Of a stretch of 64,000 nt of DNA, positions 736 through 53,895 are shown piece by piece. Source of the DNA: Spirosoma sordidisoli (lineage in GTDB: Bacteria > Bacteroidota > Bacteroidia > Cytophagales > Spirosomataceae); contig NZ_SBLB01000006.1 in assembly GCF_004138325.1 (NCBI RefSeq), forward strand, positions 248,001 to 312,000. Reading direction: 5' to 3'. Every line of letters begins with the position of its first letter. Positions within the stretch are counted from its first letter, which is position 1. The notes beneath the pieces are model-generated. The model saw only the letters and a list, made by a program, of their open reading frames with translations. It searched no databases and was not told where the DNA came from. The position numbers were made by a program, and so were the translations under genes.

Positions 736-1662
736 ATGAATCTCCCCATCGAACCGGGTTTCCCGAACCGACGAACCTTCCTGACCAGCGTTACGGCGCT
801 GGCAGCAACGCCACTCCTGTCGGCTTTACCACGCGTTGGCCCGGCTCATTATCCCGGTCAAACCAGCCCGGCTTATACCGTTCAGCAGGTTATCGATCTC
901 ATCCTGCGGGAGATTCCGGGCGCGCCCTTCGCCAAAACGGTCGATCAGCTGCGGGCCGGTAGTCCTGACCAGTCGGTAACGGGTATCGTTACGACCATGT
1001 TTCCCACCCTGGAGGTCATCGAAAAGACGGTAAAAGCCGGAGCTAACTTCATTATTGCCCACGAAACCCCGTTTTACAACAACGAAGATCAGACCGACTG
1101 GCTGCAGCAGGACGATGCTTATCGGTACAAAGTAGACCTGCTGACGAAGCATAAGATTGCCCTGTGGCGATTTCATGACTACTGGCACGCCCACAAACCC
1201 GATGGTATCCTGTTCGGCAACCTGCTCAGGCTCGGCTGGGACAAACTCTACGACAGCGCGAATCCCCGCATCATTACCCTGCCCCAGGCCATGCCGTTGC
1301 GGTCGATCGTTCAGCAGGTGAAACAAAAGCTGGATATCCCCTCCGTACGGGTAGTAGGCCGGTTGCAACAGCCCTGCCGCAGTCTGTACCTGGCGTTTGG
1401 CTACATGGACAGCAAGCGTCAGATAGCCGCCATTCAGGCGTACAAGCCCGATGTGATCCTGAGCGGAGAAACCAGAGAATGGGAAACGGTGGAGCGGGTC
1501 AGAGACGGCCTGCTGATGGGCCAGAAAACATCGCTGGTCGTGCTTAGCCACGCCGTCAGCGAAGAAGCCGGCATGGCTTACGCAGCTACCTGGCTGACGC
1601 CCAAACTGGCGGGTCTGCAGGTTACCCACATACCCAGCGGAAGCCCGTTTCAGTTACTCTGA
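736..1662 (+). CDS. Tat-exported NIF3-like dinuclear metal protein
   Basis: 308 residues. The N-terminus carries a twin-arginine motif (NRRTFL) followed by a hydrophobic segment, so export by Tat to the periplasm is expected. The remainder resembles the NIF3/YbgI family (dinuclear metal-centre proteins, often labelled GTP cyclohydrolase type 2): FIIAHETPFYNN near residue 105 stands where the family has its metal-binding His motif, and SGETREWE plus LSHAVSEE supply further likely metal ligands. Most NIF3 proteins are cytoplasmic, so a Tat-exported version is a variant of unknown function. It converges with the CPBP protease gene, overlapping it by nine bases. Confidence 0.7.
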   Translation: MNLPIEPGFPNRRTFLTSVTALAATPLLSALPRVGPAHYPGQTSPAYTVQQVIDLILREIPGAPFAKTVDQLRAGSPDQSVTGIVTTMFPTLEVIEKTVKAGANFIIAHETPFYNNEDQTDWLQQDDAYRYKVDLLTKHKIALWRFHDYWHAHKPDGILFGNLLRLGWDKLYDSANPRIITLPQAMPLRSIVQQVKQKLDIPSVRVVGRLQQPCRSLYLAFGYMDSKRQIAAIQAYKPDVILSGETREWETVERVRDGLLMGQKTSLVVLSHAVSEEAGMAYAATWLTPKLAGLQVTHIPSGSPFQLL

Positions 1663-2454
1663 CCCGCGGACTGGCAACCTGCCAACAGCGTATAGACCAC
1701 TTACCACCAGGCCGGCTACAGTTACGGTTGCGCCCACGACCGTTTGCAGACCGGGTATTGGCAGGTTAGCCATAAAGGCCACATCCATCAGCCCGTGAAA
1801 AAGCGCACAGGCCAGTATACTGCCCCGACTTCTGCTGAAAAGAAACGTAAACAGGATCGAGCCACACCACAGACTAACAAGCCAGCCCGCCAGGCCAGCC
1901 CCATCCAGGCGACTAAAGCCGGACCTGGCATACAGAAACAATGGCCAGTGCCAGACTGCCCAGCCCAGCGTAAGCCAGCCCGAAGCGCCGAGTGCGGTAT
2001 GTTGATTCAGGAGCCGGGGCAGGGCGTAGCCTCTCCAGCCCGTTTCTTCACCCAGGCCGACCCAGCCCAGCGTGAGCAGCAGGTACGGGAAAGGTTTGAT
2101 GGCTGGCAGCTCGGACGTGCGCCAGATGGCCATCCAGTCTACCGCGATCCCCTGCCAACGGGCACTGACCCAGGCTACGCCCAGCACCAGCCCCAACGGA
2201 AGCAGGGGAACAACCAGCTCGTAAAACAGCGGCCGGCGGGGTATAACCATGCGCTGCACCAGCTTTTGCAGCCCCGCCTGGCCCCTCTCTCGCCAGGTCA
2301 GATACAGGCCTGCCAGCATGGGGCCCGCCAGACCCAGGTAATGAGGCACCGCCGACAGGGACCAGCCCGGAAACCACAGCGGCCGAATGTAAGGAAACCA
2401 GCAGGCCCACGAAAAAGCGCACGCCAGCAGATAAAAACGTCCGATTGAATACAT
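1654..2454 (-). CDS. CPBP-family intramembrane protease
   Basis: 266 residues with about seven or eight hydrophobic segments. The family motifs are all visible: EETGWRGY (glutamates of the active site) near residue 136, WAVWHWPLF near residue 166, and LFHGLMD near residue 218. CPBP (CAAX protease and bacteriocin-processing, formerly Abi) proteins are membrane glutamic endopeptidases; bacterial members act in peptide maturation or bacteriocin self-immunity, but the substrate here is unknown. The gene stands alone on the minus strand between plus-strand neighbours. Confidence 0.85.
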   Translation of the reverse strand: MYSIGRFYLLACAFSWACWFPYIRPLWFPGWSLSAVPHYLGLAGPMLAGLYLTWRERGQAGLQKLVQRMVIPRRPLFYELVVPLLPLGLVLGVAWVSARWQGIAVDWMAIWRTSELPAIKPFPYLLLTLGWVGLGEETGWRGYALPRLLNQHTALGASGWLTLGWAVWHWPLFLYARSGFSRLDGAGLAGWLVSLWCGSILFTFLFSRSRGSILACALFHGLMDVAFMANLPIPGLQTVVGATVTVAGLVVSGLYAVGRLPVRGSE

Positions 2455-12836: not shown

Positions 12837-13625
12837 TTATAGTTGAGATTGGGGCACGATAGCGACGCCCCGGAACGGCGAGCCGGAGCCCCCTTTAATT
12901 TTGAGCGGCAGGCCCACAAACCAGAACGCGTGGGCGGGGATCAGGTCGACCTGGGCCAGGTTTTCGATGTTCAGGATTTCGCGCTCGCGGCATACGATAT
13001 GGGCCGGCTGCTCCCTGACAACGGCCACTTCATGATGGCTGTCGATACTAGGCGCGTCGGCCCCTACGCTGATGGCGCCCAGGTCGTTGAGGTATTCGAT
13101 GGCGCTACGATCCAGGCCGGGATAGCCCCGGATGTAGTCGAACGGCTGTTTCCACTTTTTGTACCAGCCCGTATGGTAGAGCACCACCGACTGGGGTTTG
13201 ATCGTAACCCCCGTTTTGTCCAGAGCCTCCTCGATATCGGCCCGGGTGATGTAGCTGGCCGGTTCCTTATGCGAAAAGTCGAACCAAACGCCGGGGGCCA
13301 TGAACCACTCCAGCGGCAGCTGATCGACGGAGCGCGCGTCGGGCTCGTTGACCACGTGGTTGATGGCATCGACGTGGGTATTGGAATGGTCGCAGAGGGT
13401 GAACCCGACTACCTTGTACGAATAAGGTGGTTTGGTGAGCCCCATCTTCTGGGTTTCTTCGTGCGACAGGTGATTCCAGATCAGGGTGCGCTGGTGGCCG
13501 ATGAAGGTAGGGTCTTCGGTGCTGATGGTATGACTGAGGTCCGTTACGACACAGTCGATGCCCAGGAAGTTGATCCGGGTCTGGAGGCTGAAAGGCGGGC
13601 AGAAGGCTTTTTGCAAGGTTGACAT
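12837..13625 (-). CDS. Cyclase-family metal hydrolase
   Basis: 262 residues. The signature CDHSNTHVDAINH near residue 77 is the HxxTHxDxxxH metal site of the cyclase family (PF04199), which includes bacterial kynurenine formamidase and isatin hydrolase. These enzymes hydrolyse amides or cyclic amides, and some members are thought to open lactones. GADAPSIDSHH and AHAFWFVGLPLKIKGG supply later active-site segments. No tryptophan pathway gene is nearby, so formamidase is unlikely. In this operon, opening of a lactone or cyclic ketone made by the dehydrogenases is a reasonable but unproven role. Confidence 0.85.
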   Translation of the reverse strand: MSTLQKAFCPPFSLQTRINFLGIDCVVTDLSHTISTEDPTFIGHQRTLIWNHLSHEETQKMGLTKPPYSYKVVGFTLCDHSNTHVDAINHVVNEPDARSVDQLPLEWFMAPGVWFDFSHKEPASYITRADIEEALDKTGVTIKPQSVVLYHTGWYKKWKQPFDYIRGYPGLDRSAIEYLNDLGAISVGADAPSIDSHHEVAVVREQPAHIVCREREILNIENLAQVDLIPAHAFWFVGLPLKIKGGSGSPFRGVAIVPQSQL

Positions 13626-38176: not shown

Positions 38177-40459
38177 TTGAAAACGACCCTACTCCATATC
38201 GCCCTCCTCCTGCTGACCAGCGTTTCAGCACTGGCGCAGATGCAAGCGTTCGCCTTGCAGAACGTTAGGCTGACGGGCGGACCATTCAAAAATGCGCAAG
38301 ATGTTGACCAGCGATATATCATGGCCCTGAACCCGGATAAGCTGCTGGCTCCGTACCTGATCGATGCGGGCTTGCCGGTAAAAGCGCCACGATATGGTAA
38401 CTGGGAAAGCTCGGGGCTGGACGGGCACATTGGTGGGCACTACCTGTCGGCGCTGGCCATGCTGTATGCCTCGACCGGGGATGCCGAGCTGAAAAAACGA
38501 CTCGATTACATGGTCGATCAACTGGCACAGTGTCAGGCCAAAAATGGTAACGGCTACGTGGGCGGTATTCCGCAGGGCAAGGTGTTCTGGGAGCGGATTC
38601 ACAAAGGCGACATCGACGGCAGCAGCTTCGGACTTAATAACACCTGGGTACCGCTCTACAACATTCACAAGCTGTTTGCGGGCCTGCGCGATGCCTATGA
38701 GTACGCCGGAAACAAACAAGCCAAACAGGTACTAATCGGCTTGGGCGACTGGTTTGTCGAGCTGATCAAACCCCTGTCCGACGAGCAGATTCAGCAAGTG
38801 TTGCGCACCGAACACGGCGGCATCAACGAAACGTTCGCGGATCTCTATATCCTGACGAAAGACCAGAAATACCTCGAAACGGCGCAGCGGATTTCGCATC
38901 GGGCCATTCTGGAACCGCTGATGGCGAAGCAGGATAAACTAACCGGATTACACGCCAACACCCAGATTCCGAAAGTGATCGGGTTCGAGAAGATCGCTAC
39001 GCTGACGGGTAAAAACGACTGGTCGGAAGCGGCCCAATACTTCTGGCAAAACGTATCGCAGACGCGCAGTGTAGCTTTCGGCGGCAACAGCGTGCGGGAG
39101 CATTTCAACCCGACCACTGATTTCAGTCAGGTGCTGCGCTCGAATCAGGGGCCGGAAACCTGCAACTCGTTCAACATGCTGCGGCTGAGTAAAGCCCTGT
39201 TTCTGGACAAAAATGACGTCAGCTACGTTGATTTCTACGAACGGACGCTCTACAACCACATTCTGTCGAGTCAGCACCCCTCAACAGGCGGGTTCGTATA
39301 TTTCACCCCCATTCGGCCCAACCATTACCGGGTGTATTCGCAGCCCGAAACCAGCATGTGGTGTTGCGTGGGTTCGGGTATCGAAAATCACACCAAATAC
39401 GGCGAACTGATCTACAGCCACTCGGCTAATGACCTGTTCGTGAACCTGTTCATTCCATCGATGGTGAACTGGACCGACAAATCCGTCAAGCTGACCCAGC
39501 GCACCGATTTTCCGTATCAGAATGGGTCTGACCTGGTTATTGAGACAACAAAGCCACAGGAGTTTTCACTGAACATCCGCTACCCGAAATGGGCCGAAAA
39601 CCTGGTCGTTCTGGTGAACGGCAAAGAACAGCCGGTCGATGTGAAACCGGCCAGCTACGTGGCCGTTCGTCGGAAATGGCAGTCGGGCGATAAAGTGACG
39701 GTACGTTTCAACACCTCGACACGGCTGGAATATCTGCCCGATGGGTCGAACTGGGCGGCCTTCATAAACGGTCCCATTGTGCTGGCCGCTAAAACCTCGA
39801 CCGCCGATTTGAAAGGGCTTTTTGCCGATGATAGCCGGATGGGCCACGAAACAAAAGGTAAATTGTACCCGATCACCAACGCCTACGCGCTCGTCGGCGA
39901 TCCGGCCACGTATCTGGGGCAGATCAAACCGACCAGCAAACTCCGCTTCAGCCTGGACTCGCTGACCCTGCAGCCGTTCTACGAAGTACACGACGCCCGG
40001 TACCAGATGTATTTCCAGACGTTTACCCAGGCGGCCTATGATGAGCAGAGGGCCAGGTTGAAACAACAGGAAGCCGAAGCGCTTGCCCTTGAAGCACTAA
40101 CCATTGACAAGGTGAATTGCGGGGAACAGCAGCCCGAAGTCGATCACCAGTATAAAGGTGAAAAGAGCGATTCGGGCTACGACGACGAGCAGTTCTGGCG
40201 ACGTACCCGATCCTCTATCAGCTACCAGTTGCAAAACAAAAACCGGGCGGGTAAGTACATCGACATTCGTGCTTTAGATACTATAAGGCCGGAGACAGTA
40301 CGCTTTCTGATCAACGAAAAACCGGCCCAGATTCTTTCTGCCGACGGGAAAACGATCCGATTAAACGTAGATGATACTGAAGCGATTACGATAAAAATTA
40401 TAGCTACCACCGGAACAAATACTCCGCGCTTTCACCAAATCAGACTCATAACGAACTAA
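38177..40459 (+). CDS. GH127 beta-L-arabinofuranosidase
   Basis: 760 residues. The start is a TTG at 38177; no in-frame ATG precedes it, and it opens a clean signal peptide (KTTLLHIALLLLTSVSALAQ). The (alpha/alpha)6 barrel signature follows: LDGHIGGHYLSALA, ETCNSFNMLRLSKALF and MWCCVGSGIENHTKYGE. Cys396-Cys397 match the zinc-thiolate pair of HypBA1, where a cysteine is the nucleophile. GH127 enzymes remove beta-L-arabinofuranose, known from plant glycoproteins and arabinans, so this is an odd partner for xylan enzymes. Related DUF1680 families (GH137, GH142, GH146) cannot be excluded; GH146 also acts on beta-L-arabinofuranose. Confidence 0.88.
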   Translation: MKTTLLHIALLLLTSVSALAQMQAFALQNVRLTGGPFKNAQDVDQRYIMALNPDKLLAPYLIDAGLPVKAPRYGNWESSGLDGHIGGHYLSALAMLYASTGDAELKKRLDYMVDQLAQCQAKNGNGYVGGIPQGKVFWERIHKGDIDGSSFGLNNTWVPLYNIHKLFAGLRDAYEYAGNKQAKQVLIGLGDWFVELIKPLSDEQIQQVLRTEHGGINETFADLYILTKDQKYLETAQRISHRAILEPLMAKQDKLTGLHANTQIPKVIGFEKIATLTGKNDWSEAAQYFWQNVSQTRSVAFGGNSVREHFNPTTDFSQVLRSNQGPETCNSFNMLRLSKALFLDKNDVSYVDFYERTLYNHILSSQHPSTGGFVYFTPIRPNHYRVYSQPETSMWCCVGSGIENHTKYGELIYSHSANDLFVNLFIPSMVNWTDKSVKLTQRTDFPYQNGSDLVIETTKPQEFSLNIRYPKWAENLVVLVNGKEQPVDVKPASYVAVRRKWQSGDKVTVRFNTSTRLEYLPDGSNWAAFINGPIVLAAKTSTADLKGLFADDSRMGHETKGKLYPITNAYALVGDPATYLGQIKPTSKLRFSLDSLTLQPFYEVHDARYQMYFQTFTQAAYDEQRARLKQQEAEALALEALTIDKVNCGEQQPEVDHQYKGEKSDSGYDDEQFWRRTRSSISYQLQNKNRAGKYIDIRALDTIRPETVRFLINEKPAQILSADGKTIRLNVDDTEAITIKIIATTGTNTPRFHQIRLITN

Positions 40460-40461
40460 CC

Positions 40462-41010
40462 ATGTTTCTTGTCAAAAAGAACAAAACAACAATGCTTGCC
40501 CGTAAATGTGTCAAAATAACACTATTCATCATTGGATGTGCTTTACCATCCTTCGGGCAGTCCAACTTCACCAGCAAAACCATCGGCGTGGGGGTTGTCG
40601 TCGCTGATATTGACCGCTCGGTGGACTTCTATGTCAATGGCATCGGCATGGTCAAAACCGGCAGCTTCACCATCAACGAAGACTTCGGCAAACGCTCCGG
40701 CCTGACCAATGGCGTAGCCACGAACGTAACCATCCTGAAACTCGAAAACAGCCCCGAAGCCACCGACTGGAAGCTGATGAGCTTCAACAAAAACGGGTCG
40801 CATCCGAAGCCCACCTACATCCAGGACGATACGGGTATGCAGTACATCACCATTCAGGTAAAAGCCCTTCAACCCATCATCGACCGGCTGAAGCAGATGA
40901 AGGTAAACTTCCTGGGTAGCACGCCCACCCCCCTGAACGCTAAAGCACACTTCGTTTTCGTGCAGGACCCCGACGGTAATTTCATCGAGTTGATCGGGCC
41001 GCTTCAGTAG
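40462..41010 (+). CDS. Exported VOC/glyoxalase-fold protein
   Basis: 182 residues; the start could also be 40492, which gives a more ordinary signal peptide (MLARKCVKITLFIIGCALPSFG). After the signal comes one vicinal-oxygen-chelate domain: VVVADIDRSVDFYVNGIGM and the end motif FVFVQDPDGNFIELIGP with a Glu metal ligand. Such proteins bind a divalent metal and act as lyases, isomerases or dioxygenases, or only bind ligands. A periplasmic member inside a PUL is unusual. It starts 2 bases after the GH127 stop, so it is cotranscribed and probably translationally coupled. Confidence 0.82.
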   Translation: MFLVKKNKTTMLARKCVKITLFIIGCALPSFGQSNFTSKTIGVGVVVADIDRSVDFYVNGIGMVKTGSFTINEDFGKRSGLTNGVATNVTILKLENSPEATDWKLMSFNKNGSHPKPTYIQDDTGMQYITIQVKALQPIIDRLKQMKVNFLGSTPTPLNAKAHFVFVQDPDGNFIELIGPLQ

Positions 41011-41013
41011 CCA

Positions 41014-41040
41014 TTTTTTGTCATTCCGACGTCAGGACCT
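41014..41040. repeat. Degenerate half-copy of the GTCAT palindrome
   Basis: TTTTTTGTCATTCCGACG (from 41014) followed by TCAGGACC matches the left half of the 38117 copy, but the right arm is missing. It looks like a decayed or partial element. Confidence 0.45.
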
Positions 41041-41076
41041 GAACGAAAAAATATAGTAGCGAAAACTATCATTAGA

Positions 41077-42684
41077 ATGCTCATTATCAACCGACTGCAC
41101 CAGCAACTACTGCTCCTGTCTTTGACGATTGCGTTGCTGCTAACCCAGGCTATGGCAATTGCCCAAACGGCCCAAAACCCGGTTATTTTTGCCGACGTGC
41201 CCGACATGGCCATGATCCGGGTAGGCAACACCTACTACATGAGCAGCACCACCATGCACCTGAGTCCGGGCTTGCCCATCATGAGGTCGAACGACCTGAT
41301 TAACTGGCAGCTGGTCGGCTACGCGTACGATACGCTGACGACAGTAGACGCGATGAGCCTGAACAACGGCAAAAGCACCTACGGGCGCGGCTCGTGGGCC
41401 AGCAGCCTGCGTTACCACAACGGACTTTACTACGCAACGACCTTCGCGCAGACCAGCGGCCGAACTCACATCTACACCACGAAAAATATCGAAAAAGGCC
41501 CGTGGAAAGAAGTGTCGTTCAAGCCGTCGTACCACGACCACAGCCTGTTTTTCGATGATGACGGCCGAACGTACCTGATCTACGGCGCGGGTAAACTCCG
41601 ACTGGTTGAACTTACCGCCGATGCTACTGGGGTAAAACCCGGCACCACCGAGCAGGTCATCATTGAAAACGCCAGTGCACCCTCCGGTACGGGCGGTGGC
41701 CTGCCTGCCGAAGGCTCACAACTGTTTAAAGTGAAGGGCAAATACTACCTCTTCAATATTTCGTGGCCACGTGGCGGCATACGGACAGTCATCATCCACC
41801 GCGCCGACAAGATCACCGGTCCGTGGGAAGGGCGTGTGGCCTTGCAGGATCTGGGCGTGGCGCAGGGCGGATTGATCGACACGCCCGATGGGAAGTGGTT
41901 TTCGTACCTGTTTCGCGACTTCGGCGGAGTAGGTCGCATTCCGTATCTGGTGCCCGTCGAGTGGAAAGACGGCTGGCCGGTGCTGGGCGAAACCGGTAAA
42001 GTGCCCCAAACGCTCAACCTACCCGCCAGCAAAGGTCTGATCCCCGGCATCGTGAACTCCGACGAGTTCACCCGCAAAAAAGGCGACCCCGCCCTGCCGC
42101 TGGTGTGGCAGTGGAACCATAACCCCGACAACAGCCTCTGGTCCGTCTCGGAACGGAAAGGGTTTCTGCGCTTGAAAACCGGCCGCACCGATACCTCCTT
42201 CGTGATGGCCCGCAACACGCTGACCCAGCGGACCATTGGCCCCGAATCGACCGGGTCGACAATGCTGGATGTGTCGAACCTGAACGATGGTGATTTTGCC
42301 GGGCTGAGTCTGCTGCAAAAGAACTATGGGCTGGTGGGCGTAAAAATGGAGAACGGTGCGAAAGCCATTGTGATGGTCAGTGCCAGTTCGGGTAAGCCGG
42401 TGGAGGTGCAGCGCGTGCCGCTGGGCCAGAACACGGTCTATCTGAAAGCCGAATGTGATTTCCGCGACCGCAAAGACACCACTCACTTCTTCTATAGCCT
42501 CGACGGCAAGACGTGGACGGCCATTGGCGATCCGTTGAAAATGCCGTACACCATTCCGCACTTTATGGGCTATCGATTCGGCCTGTTCAATTACGCCACC
42601 GCTTCGGGGGTCCGACCACAAACGGGCGGTTTCGCCGACTTTGACTACTTCCGGATCAGCGACAAACTGACCCAAAAGCAATAA
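41077..42684 (+). CDS. GH43 glycoside hydrolase with C-terminal beta-sandwich (second)
   Basis: 535 residues; signal peptide up to about residue 30. The propeller has Asp in IFADVPDMAMIRVG, Asp in YHDHSLFFDDDG and Glu in PAEGSQLFKV, the standard GH43 set. The second half (from about 330: FTRKKGDPALPLVWQWNHNP) is the concanavalin-like xylosidase C-terminal domain that often lines the active site. The DVPDMAMIR version of the base motif is shared by a distinct group of Bacteroidota GH43 enzymes, beta-xylosidase or arabinofuranosidase in type. It differs enough from the 36440 and 46168 GH43s to suggest division of labour. Confidence 0.9.
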   Translation: MLIINRLHQQLLLLSLTIALLLTQAMAIAQTAQNPVIFADVPDMAMIRVGNTYYMSSTTMHLSPGLPIMRSNDLINWQLVGYAYDTLTTVDAMSLNNGKSTYGRGSWASSLRYHNGLYYATTFAQTSGRTHIYTTKNIEKGPWKEVSFKPSYHDHSLFFDDDGRTYLIYGAGKLRLVELTADATGVKPGTTEQVIIENASAPSGTGGGLPAEGSQLFKVKGKYYLFNISWPRGGIRTVIIHRADKITGPWEGRVALQDLGVAQGGLIDTPDGKWFSYLFRDFGGVGRIPYLVPVEWKDGWPVLGETGKVPQTLNLPASKGLIPGIVNSDEFTRKKGDPALPLVWQWNHNPDNSLWSVSERKGFLRLKTGRTDTSFVMARNTLTQRTIGPESTGSTMLDVSNLNDGDFAGLSLLQKNYGLVGVKMENGAKAIVMVSASSGKPVEVQRVPLGQNTVYLKAECDFRDRKDTTHFFYSLDGKTWTAIGDPLKMPYTIPHFMGYRFGLFNYATASGVRPQTGGFADFDYFRISDKLTQKQ

Positions 42685-42720
42685 CCCACTCCCCCTCTCC
42701 TGCCTACCTAAACCCTTGCT

Positions 42721-45258
42721 ATGAAAAAAACACTGACCTATTCAGGCCTTCGGGCAACGGGCCTGTTCCTGTTGCTCCTGGCTACGACAGCCGCCTTTTG
42801 TCAGAAGACCAGACTGAACAATGCGGAGTATTTCGAAACGCCGGGACTCAACGTGCTGGTTTTCAGCAGCCAGTATAACGGGATGTTTTTCGACGAGAAA
42901 ACAGCCGGTATCGAGATGATTCACCACGGCGTACGTACCTCGACGGGCGGAGCGGTGCGCCTGCAGCACACACCCGAACAGTGGGACCTGGTGCCGAAGA
43001 TGACGTCGCGCAAAGTAGACAAGGCAACCAACAGCATCGAGGTCGGGTTGCGCTATCAGGAAGTTGATTTCGACTCGCGGGTGGTGGTCAGCGCCAAAGG
43101 CAACGGGTTCGACATCAGCGTGTACCTCGACAAACCACTACCCGCGAAAGTGGTTGGCAAAGCCGGCTTCAACCTGGAGTTTGTGCCGTCTGCCTATTTC
43201 GAGAAGTCGTATATGGCCGACGGTAGGCCAGGTACGTTCCCGCTGTATCCGGCCAGCAACACCAAAACAGAGCCACTCTCTGAGAAGATTCAGCAGTTTG
43301 GCATCCACAATACATTCGAGGAGCGGGGCAAGCCCGAATTCATCGTACCGGCCCCCCTGACGACGGGCAAAACCATGGTGCTGGCCCCCGATGATCCCGA
43401 ACACATGGTCAGTATCCAGTCGGAGACGGAGTTGATGCTGTTCGACGGGCGGAATCTGGCCCAGAACGGCTGGTTCATTGTACGTAGTCTGCTGCCCGCC
43501 GGGAAAACCGGCAAGGTACTGACCTGGTATCTGGAACCCAATGTGATCCCTAACTGGAAACGCGCGCCCGTGATTGAATTCTCGCAGGTAGGCTACAATC
43601 CAGGGCAGGAAAAAGTGGCGGTGATTGAGTTGGATCAGGCGGATCAGGCGCTGAAAACGGCGTCGCTGGTTCAGGTGATGGCCGATGGCAAACAGGTGGA
43701 GAAATTGAAGGGAGCCGTCACAAACTGGGGCAAATTTCTGCGCTACAACTACGCCAAATTCGATTTTACGTCGGTCAAAGAGCCGGGCGTATACTACATC
43801 CGGTACGGCGATCAGAAGACCAATATCTTCCCCATCGCGACCGACGTATACGAAAAGACCTGGCACCCAACGCTGGACGTCTGGTTTCCGGTGCAAATGG
43901 ATCACATGACGGTGAACGAAGCGTATCGCGTATGGCACGGAGCACCGTTCAAGGACGATGCGTTGCAGGCGCCACTCAACCAGCAGCACTTCGACGGCTA
44001 CTCGATGGGCGACAAAACCGATACGAAGTATAAACCGCTGGAGCGTATTCCGGGGCTGGGCGTGGGCGGCTGGTTCGACGCGGGTGATTTCGATATTCAG
44101 ACCGGCTCCCACAACACCACGATCCTGAACTTCGTGGATGCCTGGGAAAAGCTGAAACTGACCCGCGACGAAACCCGCATCGATCAGGCCGGGCAGTATG
44201 TCGATATACACCGACCCGACGGCAAACCCGATCTTCTCCAGCAGATCGAACACGGCACGCTGAACCTGGTGGCGCAGGTCAAAAACATCGGGCATCCCGT
44301 TCGGGGCATTATTGTGCCGAACCTGCACCAGTACCACCACCTCGGCGACGCGAACACCGAAACCGATAATCTGCCCTACAACCCGAACCTGAAACCCTAC
44401 GAGTCGGACGGAAAATCGAGCGGTACTATGGACGACCGCTGGGCCTTCACCACCCGCTCCGCGTTCCTCGACTACAATACGGCCGCAGCCCTTGCCGCAG
44501 CCAGCCGGGCGCTAAAAGGTTTCAACGATACCTTATCGACGCAGGCACTGACATACGCGAAGAAGCTGTGGGACGAAAACGACGGCAAAGTCAACACCGA
44601 CACCTCCCGCTTTGCCATGTTCCGCCGGAATACCGAAATGGCCGCGGCCCTGCAGCTCTTCATGACCACCAAAGACGACCGCTACGCCAAAAAATTCAAC
44701 GACGCCATTTGGCCTGCCCTCGACCGGAACGTTGGGCAGGGCCTGACGGCGGCTCTGCAAGCGTATCCGTTTATGGACAAGGCCTATCAGACAAAGCTGA
44801 AAGACTATGTGGTCAAGTTCAAGACGGCAAACGATGAGCTTACCAAACAGAATCCATACGGCGTTCCGGCGGGTACGCGGGGCGGCTGGGGCAGTAACCA
44901 GCAGGTAATCAGCTGGGCCATTACCAACTACCACGCCAACCGGCATTTTCCGGACATCATCAGCCCGGAATATGTCTTCAAAGGACTGAACTACATTTTC
45001 GGCTGCCACCCGTACCACAACCTCTCGTTCGTGTCGGCGGTGGGTACGCGATCCAAGAAGATCACCTACGGCAGCAACCGTGCTGACTTCAGCTACATCG
45101 CCGGAGGGGTAGTTCCCGGCATTATGGTGCTGAAGCCCGACTTTCCAGAGAACCGCGAGGACTGGCCGTTTCTGTGGGGCGAAAACGAGGTGATCATCGA
45201 CATCTGCTCGGCCTACATCCTGCTGGCCGGCGCGGCTAATGAATTAGTCAAAAAGTAA
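42721..45258 (+). CDS. GH9 glycoside hydrolase with long N-terminal domain
   Basis: 845 residues with a signal peptide (1-27). Residues 30-280 form a domain I do not recognise, rich in beta strands. A CelD-type Ig-like domain follows (IEFSQVGYNPGQEKVAVIEL, about 285-375). The GH9 (alpha/alpha)6 catalytic domain runs from about 380: GGWFDAGDFD at 449-458 holds the base aspartates, HPYHNLSFVSAVG the substrate loop, and WGENEVIID near the end the acid glutamate. GH9 enzymes are mostly beta-1,4-glucanases; here it might cut a mixed glucan, xyloglucan or xylan backbone. Confidence 0.88.
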   Translation: MKKTLTYSGLRATGLFLLLLATTAAFCQKTRLNNAEYFETPGLNVLVFSSQYNGMFFDEKTAGIEMIHHGVRTSTGGAVRLQHTPEQWDLVPKMTSRKVDKATNSIEVGLRYQEVDFDSRVVVSAKGNGFDISVYLDKPLPAKVVGKAGFNLEFVPSAYFEKSYMADGRPGTFPLYPASNTKTEPLSEKIQQFGIHNTFEERGKPEFIVPAPLTTGKTMVLAPDDPEHMVSIQSETELMLFDGRNLAQNGWFIVRSLLPAGKTGKVLTWYLEPNVIPNWKRAPVIEFSQVGYNPGQEKVAVIELDQADQALKTASLVQVMADGKQVEKLKGAVTNWGKFLRYNYAKFDFTSVKEPGVYYIRYGDQKTNIFPIATDVYEKTWHPTLDVWFPVQMDHMTVNEAYRVWHGAPFKDDALQAPLNQQHFDGYSMGDKTDTKYKPLERIPGLGVGGWFDAGDFDIQTGSHNTTILNFVDAWEKLKLTRDETRIDQAGQYVDIHRPDGKPDLLQQIEHGTLNLVAQVKNIGHPVRGIIVPNLHQYHHLGDANTETDNLPYNPNLKPYESDGKSSGTMDDRWAFTTRSAFLDYNTAAALAAASRALKGFNDTLSTQALTYAKKLWDENDGKVNTDTSRFAMFRRNTEMAAALQLFMTTKDDRYAKKFNDAIWPALDRNVGQGLTAALQAYPFMDKAYQTKLKDYVVKFKTANDELTKQNPYGVPAGTRGGWGSNQQVISWAITNYHANRHFPDIISPEYVFKGLNYIFGCHPYHNLSFVSAVGTRSKKITYGSNRADFSYIAGGVVPGIMVLKPDFPENREDWPFLWGENEVIIDICSAYILLAGAANELVKK

Positions 45259-45269
45259 CGTAACCCGTT

Positions 45270-46100
45270 ATGAAATACCTTATTTCCCTGTTGCCACTCT
45301 GGGTTTACGCGTATGCAGGCCCTGCGCAAACGCCGAATTCTATCGTGAGCAGCCCCGACGGCAAATTGCAGGTGACGCTATCGCTGGACAATGGGAAGCC
45401 AGCTTACAGTGTGTCGCTAAATGGCAACCCATTTATCGTGAAATCGCCCCTCGGTTTAAAAACGAATGTGGATGATTTCACGGAAGGACTATCCGTGGGG
45501 AAAGCGCTGGCGATCAGCAAGCTTGACAACACCTACGAGTTGCCGAACATCAAGCAAAGTAAGGTGCATTACGTGGCCAATGAAGGCGTCATTTCCTACT
45601 CGAAGGAAAACAGACCCGCCATCGACATTACGTTCCGGGTGAGCAACAACGATGTGGCGTTCCGGTACAAAGTGTATCCGCAAAAGGCGTCCCGTTCCTG
45701 CGTGATCAACGAAGAAAAAACAGGCTTTACGTTTCCAACCGGTACCACCACGTTCCTGTCGGCGCAAAGCAAAGCGATGGTCGGTTTTGCCCGAACCATG
45801 GACTTCATGAAAACCGTGCCCACCACCTGGGACGAAGTGCGCTACATCGACGGCTATCCGGGCAGGTACGTTGTCCTGGCTCGTCGGCAGGGCACGAAAT
45901 GGTACGTAGCCGGGGTGAATGCCCAGAAAGAGTCCCTCAAGCTGAAGATTAAATTGCCCATGATTACCCCCGGTGCCCAGTATAAGCTCTACAGCGACGA
46001 TGCGCAATTGACCGGCAGGGTGACCACGGCCAAACTGCCGAAGAATCAGGAAATGGAGTGGGTGATTCCGACAAACGGGGCCGCCCTGCTAGTGAATTGA
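45270..46100 (+). pseudogene. GH97 remnant lacking the catalytic barrel
   Basis: 276 residues, whereas GH97 enzymes have about 650-700. Signal peptide (1-19), then a GH97 N-terminal beta-sandwich (SSPDGKLQVTLSLDNGKPAYSV, SPLGLKTNVDDF, FRYKVYP, TFPTGTTTFLSAQS) up to GFART at 172-176. The next residue already begins the C-terminal part (MDFMKTVPTTWDE, then VVLARRQGTKWYVAGVNA) that normally follows the TIM barrel. The whole (beta/alpha)8 domain with all catalytic and calcium residues is missing, yet the frame is kept. It is either a pseudogene made by one clean internal deletion (junction near 45795-45800) or a surviving two-domain sugar-binding protein. Confidence 0.8.
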
Positions 46101-46167
46101 GGGAAAGCGAGTACGGCTACTTTTCCCGAGAGCTGATGCGAAATGAATACCGAAACCTGGTAGTTGA

Positions 46168-49033
<2,866 letters not shown>

Positions 49034-51798: not shown

Positions 51799-53895
51799 AT
51801 GAAACCGATGCATACATCCATTTTCGTTCAACTGGCGCTCTGTTTGCTGACGAGCCTGGCCGGATTGGCCCAGCCTGCTCCGCCGAAACCCGTTGGTCCG
51901 CTGCCCAGCGCCAATCAGTTGCGCTGGCAGAAAATGGAGTATTATGCCTTCATCCATTTTTCGATCAATACCTATACCGACATGGCCTGGGGCCTTGGCA
52001 ACGAAGACCCGAAGCTGTTCAACCCGACTAAGCTGGATTGTCGGCAATGGGCCAGGATCTGTAAAGAGGCCGGGATGACGGGTATTATTTTCACGGCCAA
52101 GCACCACAGTGGCTTCTGCCTCTGGCCGTCGAAATACACCGATTATTCCGTCAAGAATGCACCCTGGCGCAACGGAAAAGGCGATGTGGTGCGCGAACTG
52201 GCCGATGCCTGCAAAGAATACGGCCTGAAGTTCGGCGTGTACCTGTCGCCCTGGGACCGGAACCATGCCGATTATGGCAAACCCGAATACATCACCTATT
52301 TCCGCAACCAGCTGACCGAACTGCTGACCAACTACGGCGACATTTTTGAAGTCTGGTACGACGGGGCCAACGGCGGGTCGGGCTACTACGGCGGGGCCAA
52401 CGAGACGCGCAAGATCGACGCGAAAACGTATTACGACTGGCCCAATACCTACAAACTCGTGCGGAAGCTACAGCCCAACATCGTGATCTGGAACGACGGG
52501 GGCGACCGGGCCGATCTGCGCTGGGTGGGCACCGAAGCCGGGTATGTCGGCGAAACCAACTGGAGCCTGTTGAATGCGACCGGAGACGTACCAGAAGAGA
52601 TGTTACGCCATGGCGTCGAGAACGGCAATGCCTGGGTGCCGGGAGAAGTGAACACGTCGATCCGGCCCGAATGGTTTTACCATGAACGCGAAGACCGGAA
52701 GGTAAAAACGCTGCCCCAACTGATGGATACGTATTACAATTCCATCGGCCGAAACGGGACGCTGCTGCTCAATTTTCCGATCATGCCCAACGGCCTGATT
52801 CACGAGCTGGACGAGAAAGCCGCACAGTCCTTCGCTAACGCCCGAAAAGAAGCCTTTGCCGTAAATCTGGCGAAAAACGCGAAAGTAACGGCCTCTGAGG
52901 TTCGCGGAAAAAGCGCTACCTACGACGCCGGTAAAGCCATCGATGCCGATCTGGAGAGCTTTTGGGGCACGGATGATAACGTGCGCAATGCATCGCTGAC
53001 GCTGAACTTCAACAAACCCACCACGTTCAACCGGTTTCTGGTGCAGGAGCCCATCCGACTGGGGCAACGGGTTAAAGCATTCAAAGTTGAGGCTCTGGTC
53101 GATGGCAACTGGAAAGAGATCGATAAACAGACGACCATTGGCTATAAACGCATACTCCGTTTCCCGACCGTCGAGGCCACCCAACTGCGACTGACCATTC
53201 TGGACGCCAAAGGCAGCCCGTTGATTTCGAATCTGGCGGTGTACAACGCCCCCCTGATTCTATCGCCCCCGGTCATCACCCGCAATCAGACGGGCGACAT
53301 TCAGATCAAGCCGGGAGACACCGAATCGGAACTGTATTACACGCTTGACGGGAGCACACCAACAGCAAAAACGACTAAATACACGACTCCGATGAAAACC
53401 AGTGGCGGTAAAGTTGAATTAAAGGCCATTGCTTACAACCCCTTCACGAAGCAAAGCAGCGTCGTCAGCGAAGAGAAATTCGACGTCGCCCGCAGCAACT
53501 GGAAAATCCTAAGTACCGACGCCAAATCGGCTTATCAGGCGCTGGATGGCAACCCCGGCACCTCCTGGCAGCAACCCAAAAACCTGGCGATGCCTACGGA
53601 CCTAGTCATTGATCTGGGCAAGGAAGAAAATCTAGTTGGTTTCCGGTATTTGCCCGCCCAGAACTGGTGGGAAGAGGCCAGTATCATTACCCACTACCAG
53701 TTTGAAGTATCCACTGATAACGTGACCTGGAAGCGGGTCAGTGAAGGCGAGTTTTCGAACATCAAAAACAGTCCGGTCTGGCAAACCAAATCGTTTGGAC
53801 CCATCAAAGCCCGATACATCAAACTCCGTGCGTTGAAAAACACGCAGGAAGGGTCAGCGTCGGGCTACGCGGAAGTAGATGTGATTACGCAGTGA
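51799..53895 (+). CDS. GH29 alpha-L-fucosidase with F5/8-type modules
   Basis: 698 residues; signal peptide up to about residue 25. The barrel has TAKHHSGFCLWPSKYTDYSV, typical of GH29, and the nucleophile Asp188 in EVWYDGANGG. After the barrel (to about 350) come an F5/8-type C/CBM32-like sandwich (about 355-480), a chitobiase-type C-terminal domain (ELYYTLDGSTPTAK, about 490-560) and a second F5/8-like module (about 565-698). Expected activity is hydrolysis of alpha-1,3/1,4-fucose or galactose-linked caps. With GH95 it gives the locus two different deoxysugar- or L-galactose-removing enzymes. It lies 10 bases after GH39. Confidence 0.9.
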   Translation: MKPMHTSIFVQLALCLLTSLAGLAQPAPPKPVGPLPSANQLRWQKMEYYAFIHFSINTYTDMAWGLGNEDPKLFNPTKLDCRQWARICKEAGMTGIIFTAKHHSGFCLWPSKYTDYSVKNAPWRNGKGDVVRELADACKEYGLKFGVYLSPWDRNHADYGKPEYITYFRNQLTELLTNYGDIFEVWYDGANGGSGYYGGANETRKIDAKTYYDWPNTYKLVRKLQPNIVIWNDGGDRADLRWVGTEAGYVGETNWSLLNATGDVPEEMLRHGVENGNAWVPGEVNTSIRPEWFYHEREDRKVKTLPQLMDTYYNSIGRNGTLLLNFPIMPNGLIHELDEKAAQSFANARKEAFAVNLAKNAKVTASEVRGKSATYDAGKAIDADLESFWGTDDNVRNASLTLNFNKPTTFNRFLVQEPIRLGQRVKAFKVEALVDGNWKEIDKQTTIGYKRILRFPTVEATQLRLTILDAKGSPLISNLAVYNAPLILSPPVITRNQTGDIQIKPGDTESELYYTLDGSTPTAKTTKYTTPMKTSGGKVELKAIAYNPFTKQSSVVSEEKFDVARSNWKILSTDAKSAYQALDGNPGTSWQQPKNLAMPTDLVIDLGKEENLVGFRYLPAQNWWEEASIITHYQFEVSTDNVTWKRVSEGEFSNIKNSPVWQTKSFGPIKARYIKLRALKNTQEGSASGYAEVDVITQ

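Follow-up and report, generated by a model that had tools for sequence, protein, structure and literature searches.

A probable loss-of-function in-frame deletion in a GH97 glycosidase gene of Spirosoma

One gene in the window (the 64-kb stretch of Spirosoma DNA analyzed here as a whole) is very probably a recently inactivated GH97 glycosidase that has undergone a loss-of-function internal deletion. A single 1122-bp deletion took codons 178-551 from the 650-codon gene of an apparently secreted enzyme in a plant-polysaccharide cluster. With them went the latter portion of the N-terminal sandwich and the catalytic barrel almost entirely, together with the conserved Asp found in the KVDFF stretch. 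A random deletion keeps the reading frame with a one-in-three chance; here the length lost was by chance a multiple of three, so that the gene still has its start, frame and stop. What is left of it probably yields an unstable, non-enzymatic fragment or nothing useful, in which case the strain would be without that hydrolytic step. The comparisons that follow show the deletion, how far it extends relative to the closest relative, the absence of the barrel and the lack of a close copy in the rest of the assembly; from them and the features listed below we infer that function was lost, that the remnant fails to fold and that the event is recent.

42721..45258, + strand: upstream neighbor, GH9-like with CelD_N, intact; 97.4% amino acid identity to Spirosoma lacussanchae, pairwise dN/dS 0.044
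45270..46100, + strand: GH97 remnant gene, one open frame of 276 codons plus stop (Pfam)
45345..45776, + strand: partial GH97_N domain, residues 26-169, profile positions 1-134 of 229
45800..45801, + strand: deletion junction, left flank ending at 45800 and right flank resuming at 45801; 1122 nt (374 codons) missing relative to S. lacussanchae
45825..46049, + strand: GH97_C domain, residues 186-260, profile positions 1-80 of 97
46168..48135, + strand: downstream neighbor, GH43 with CBM6, intact; 92.7% amino acid identity to S. lacussanchae, pairwise dN/dS 0.10

The remnant open reading frame (45270-46100, + strand) starts with ATG, ends with TGA and encodes 276 amino acids beginning with a putative signal peptide, plausible by eye, such that the initial annotation was right about its extent, frame and stop. 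In Pfam searches the protein matched GH97_N (E 1.4e-32) and GH97_C (E 1.3e-15, 57.8 bits against a curated cut-off of 25), bearing out the earlier assignment of the C-terminal half, with no match to the Glyco_hydro_97 barrel PF10566 anywhere in the 276 residues. Of what a functional GH97 enzyme requires, the remnant therefore has the GH97_C domain, only profile positions 1-134 of 229 of the GH97_N sandwich, and neither the (beta/alpha)8 catalytic barrel PF10566 nor its catalytic residues. The nearest solved relative, PDB 5xfm, is a GH97 enzyme labelled alpha-glucosidase, which we take to be the Bacteroides thetaiotaomicron beta-L-arabinopyranosidase. It aligned with the remnant in two pieces (remnant 23-178 with chain 16-171, and 174-273 with chain 541-639), leaving chain residues 172-540 without a counterpart, whereas the full S. 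lacussanchae orthologue aligned over its residues 18-648; the gap of about 370 residues agrees with the earlier claim that the barrel is absent from the protein. AlphaFold models had a mean pLDDT of 50.2 for the remnant and 45.8 for an intact orthologue used as control, both from shallow alignments (15 and 14 sequences, respectively), and because the full-length control also scored poorly the folding of the remnant was not judged from them.

The intact form of the gene was found at the same syntenic place in S. lacussanchae (L032 6001-7950, NZ_SWJG01000002.1), where it encodes a protein of 650 amino acids with full sandwich, barrel and C-terminal domain, as against the 276 amino acids of the window gene. 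The S. lacussanchae genome could be aligned to most of the 64-kb window, and window positions 39258-49029 are collinear with it at about 91% DNA identity, the sole interruption being the deletion site. To the left of the junction L032 1-6531 matched window 39258-45800 (91.8% DNA identity) and to the right L032 7651-10884 matched window 45798-49029 (90.8%), with both adjoining genes, GH9-like and GH43-CBM6, aligning with their counterparts over their full length. Across residues 1-177 the remnant itself is 90.4% identical to the orthologue in amino acid sequence; for its final 99 residues the figure is 85.9%. The locus thus shows one of the features expected of a pseudogene by internal deletion, an intact syntenic orthologue in a close relative relative to which one block is missing. 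From this sequence comparison it is strongly supported that one in-frame internal deletion produced the window gene, and the suggestion of a single deletion made in the initial annotation is upheld by the collinear flanks and the one block gone.

By aligned codons the window gene equals the 650-codon S. lacussanchae gene minus exactly 374 codons, residues 178-551, so that the large in-frame loss noted earlier is correct in kind, with its size corrected from about 380-420 residues. In the intact S. lacussanchae protein Pfam places GH97_N at residues 26-289, the barrel at 306-558 and GH97_C at 560-620. The deletion consequently removes sandwich residues 178-289 (112 of 264, about 42% of the GH97_N match); of the barrel match, the seven residues at its end (552-558) remain beyond the right breakpoint. 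The earlier description of a whole N-terminal sandwich joined cleanly, domain to domain, does not hold, because the deletion begins in mid-sandwich (26-289 in the full enzyme) and stops seven residues short of the end of the barrel match. A sandwich that is only partial in the remnant in turn speaks against the remnant being a purpose-made protein of two domains. Within the deleted part lies the KVDFF stretch, whose conserved Asp is presumably the retaining nucleophile. At the junction the left flank finishes in ACCATG and the right flank restarts with GACTTC; four bases, CCAT, are found at both breakpoints in several orthologues, with only AT shared in S. lacussanchae. The domain limits given for the published model of another GH97 enzyme likewise put the N-terminal sandwich (residues 21-277) ahead of the barrel (PMC10086023).

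The short form was sought in other genomes, sampled at one genome per species. Among the matches listed for the genus, six of 35 other genomes carry a close orthologue, five as a single frame of 652-704 amino acids, and in the sixth (G019) a frameshift divides it into frames of 419 and 248 amino acids. In the family 24 of 222 genomes, own genome included, matched at E 1e-30 or better, and of the 23 other carriers 22 have the gene in frames of at least 648 amino acids and one has a frameshifted long copy. Samples of the order (27 of 390 genomes at 1e-25) and of the phylum (28 of 395 at 1e-20), each counting the own genome, gave other listed matches that all lie in frames of at least 647 amino acids. 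At all 43 loci taken from genome contigs the two halves are separated by 367-408 codons, in frame and stop-free. The same N-plus-C short form was thus seen in none of the 23 other family carriers (222 genomes) and at none of the 43 genome-contig loci; the family, order and phylum samples overlap and used strict cut-offs with the best candidates per genome only, so divergent short forms could escape. Short frames of distant GH97 matches in the genus were inspected at seven places among the matches listed, the G019 copy included, and none was an N-plus-C fusion. Barrel sequence was present at six of the seven, with long genes lying in two or more frames or, at the G006 place, one long match shown split in the frame list, and the seventh, in the fragmented draft G028, showed the GH97 C-terminal end only. 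Among the papers searched, none paired GH97 with Spirosoma and none combined in-frame deletion, pseudogene, catalytic domain, glycoside hydrolase and polysaccharide utilization.

In two of these genomes other GH97 genes appear split. The orthologue at G019:C1:3178768-3180715 (L004, L111) is frameshifted at a T run right after the KVDFF stretch, giving frames of 419 and 248 amino acids, which may reflect either a genuine mutation or a sequencing error in the homopolymer. On G032:C1 (L105, L106, L107) three distant GH97 genes are each broken into two or more frames, as if by many small indel errors in the assembly or by repeated GH97 decay.

Substitutions were polarized with nine outgroups, excluding four ambiguous sites that were all synonymous. 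The polarized counts gave no significant signal of relaxed selection in the remnant, with 17 nonsynonymous to 22 synonymous changes on the window branch against 18:32 on the sister branch leading to S. lacussanchae (Fisher p 0.52). The same was true of the N region (10:14 window, 9:26 sister; p 0.26) and of the C region (7:8 window, 9:6 sister; p 0.72), and, as a point against an inactivated gene, no stop, frameshift or other second lesion has accumulated in the remnant. A model with a neutral late phase put the neutral fraction at 0.08 (interval 0-0.34); when a lower neutral ratio was used to allow for transition bias it was 0.12 (0-0.51). The best fit puts the neutral phase at about a tenth of the window branch, with zero also compatible. 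Neutrality over the whole branch was rejected (binomial p 1e-5; 5e-4 under the lower neutral ratio). As relaxation is not significant, the deletion is either recent or the remnant is still constrained, with the counts fitting both equally. The proposal in the initial annotation that the deletion is recent is therefore compatible with the substitution pattern, which fits a constrained remnant just as well.

Pairwise dN/dS against S. lacussanchae was 0.157 for the remnant overall, 0.105 for the N region and 0.338 for the C region, the raised C-region value being common to both branches. For comparison only the immediate neighbors (0.044 and 0.10) were used. Across the window values were obtained for 40 of 42 neighbor rows, with a median of 0.071 that includes unsound rows: those starting at 2481, 8324, 13558, 36383 and 51799 have stops in the matched stretch of the sister and a shifted alignment as a result, those starting at 39 and 5204 have high values, and the one starting at 13064 has no synonymous change. 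The sister's GH43 gene matching window 36383 was considered as a further lesion and not accepted, the stop sitting at codon 3.

The main alternative to a recently inactivated enzyme, and a very unlikely one, is that selection maintains the short form as a functional two-domain protein without catalysis, such as a secreted protein for sugar binding or assembly composed of a half-sandwich and a C-terminal oligomerization domain. The intact start, frame, stop and both flanks would be expected of such a protein, as would nonsynonymous change without a significant rise in either region (N p 0.26, C p 0.72), and the rejection of whole-branch neutrality is as compatible with selective retention of the remnant as with a recent deletion. 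However, the join lies away from the domain borders, no second instance was seen among the genomes examined, retention of the frame needs no selection given a one-in-three chance, and the low level of change is explained equally well by a recent deletion. The selection for a two-domain carbohydrate-binding protein raised in the initial annotation accordingly finds no positive support, with the sandwich cut in mid-domain and no second short form. The bolder version, in which the deletion created a new selected, secreted, non-catalytic protein whose half-sandwich and GH97_C serve as a compact sugar-binding or decoy subunit of the cluster, is very unlikely.

The products of the surrounding cluster include GH43, GH127, GH9-like, GH43-CBM6, acetylesterase-like (SASA), BD-FAE esterase-like, GH39 and alpha-L-fucosidase proteins, a gene content which suggests that the cluster breaks down a substituted xylan-type polysaccharide. 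The alpha-L-fucosidase gene, at the other end of the stretch, is intact in the window (51799-53895). In S. lacussanchae (L077-L080, G009:C12, near 90,900) it is reduced to its first bases and the counterpart of the last 89 codons, the last part being out of frame and containing a stop. Like the GH97 remnant, the eroded fucosidase gene has lost most of a glycosidase of the same cluster internally, but there the frame is lost and a stop present, whereas the GH97 remnant has kept its frame. With the GH97 deletion here and the fucosidase loss in the sister, both lineages have lost a single glycosidase of this cluster by internal deletion. The locus is as such a well-resolved snapshot of carbohydrate-active gene loss, a single deletion whose ends are exactly placed, in a cluster from which the sister species lost another gene similarly, and a caution for annotation in that the two remaining domains still earn a GH97 label despite the missing catalytic barrel.

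It has also to be considered that the remnant is itself non-functional and its frame was favored because continued translation would spare the downstream GH43 gene polar effects, a reading to which we give a similarly very low probability. An intact GH43 gene on the same strand starts 67 nt past the remnant stop, as this would need; the operon structure is putative, however, a frame is kept by chance one time in three, and in the same cluster the fucosidase remnant of the sister is out of frame. Least probable of all is an assembly or consensus error concealing a full gene in the real genome, for although the source is a draft of 27 contigs, the sequence common to both breakpoints is no longer than about four bases, leaving nothing repeated to collapse, and nothing closely matching the barrel sequence occurs in the remaining assembly. 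None of the 18 families of direct repeats listed for L032 6400-7800 connects the two breakpoints, so collapse looks unlikely, and collapse mediated by a long repeat was rejected on these grounds.

Translocation of the barrel elsewhere in the genome was rejected as well. The deleted 374-residue segment had one match in the own genome, 29% identical, in a 671-amino-acid GH97 paralogue on contig 3, and a GH97_N search returned only the remnant and this paralogue. Besides the remnant, the own assembly hence contains a single distant GH97 and no close copy of this gene, since both searches led to the same 671-amino-acid paralogue. The deletion is real and precise and is ordinary in kind, with a new kind of protein not demonstrated.

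Other differences from S. lacussanchae were seen elsewhere in the window. For a 266-amino-acid open reading frame at 1654-2454 (- strand), tblastn gave no match to the S. lacussanchae stretch, the flanking DNA being otherwise collinear. Synonymous divergence was about 0.1-0.25 in most rows before 28 kb and mostly higher, at about 0.29-0.66 in the sound rows, over window 28374-62358, as if the parts before and after about 28 kb had different histories.
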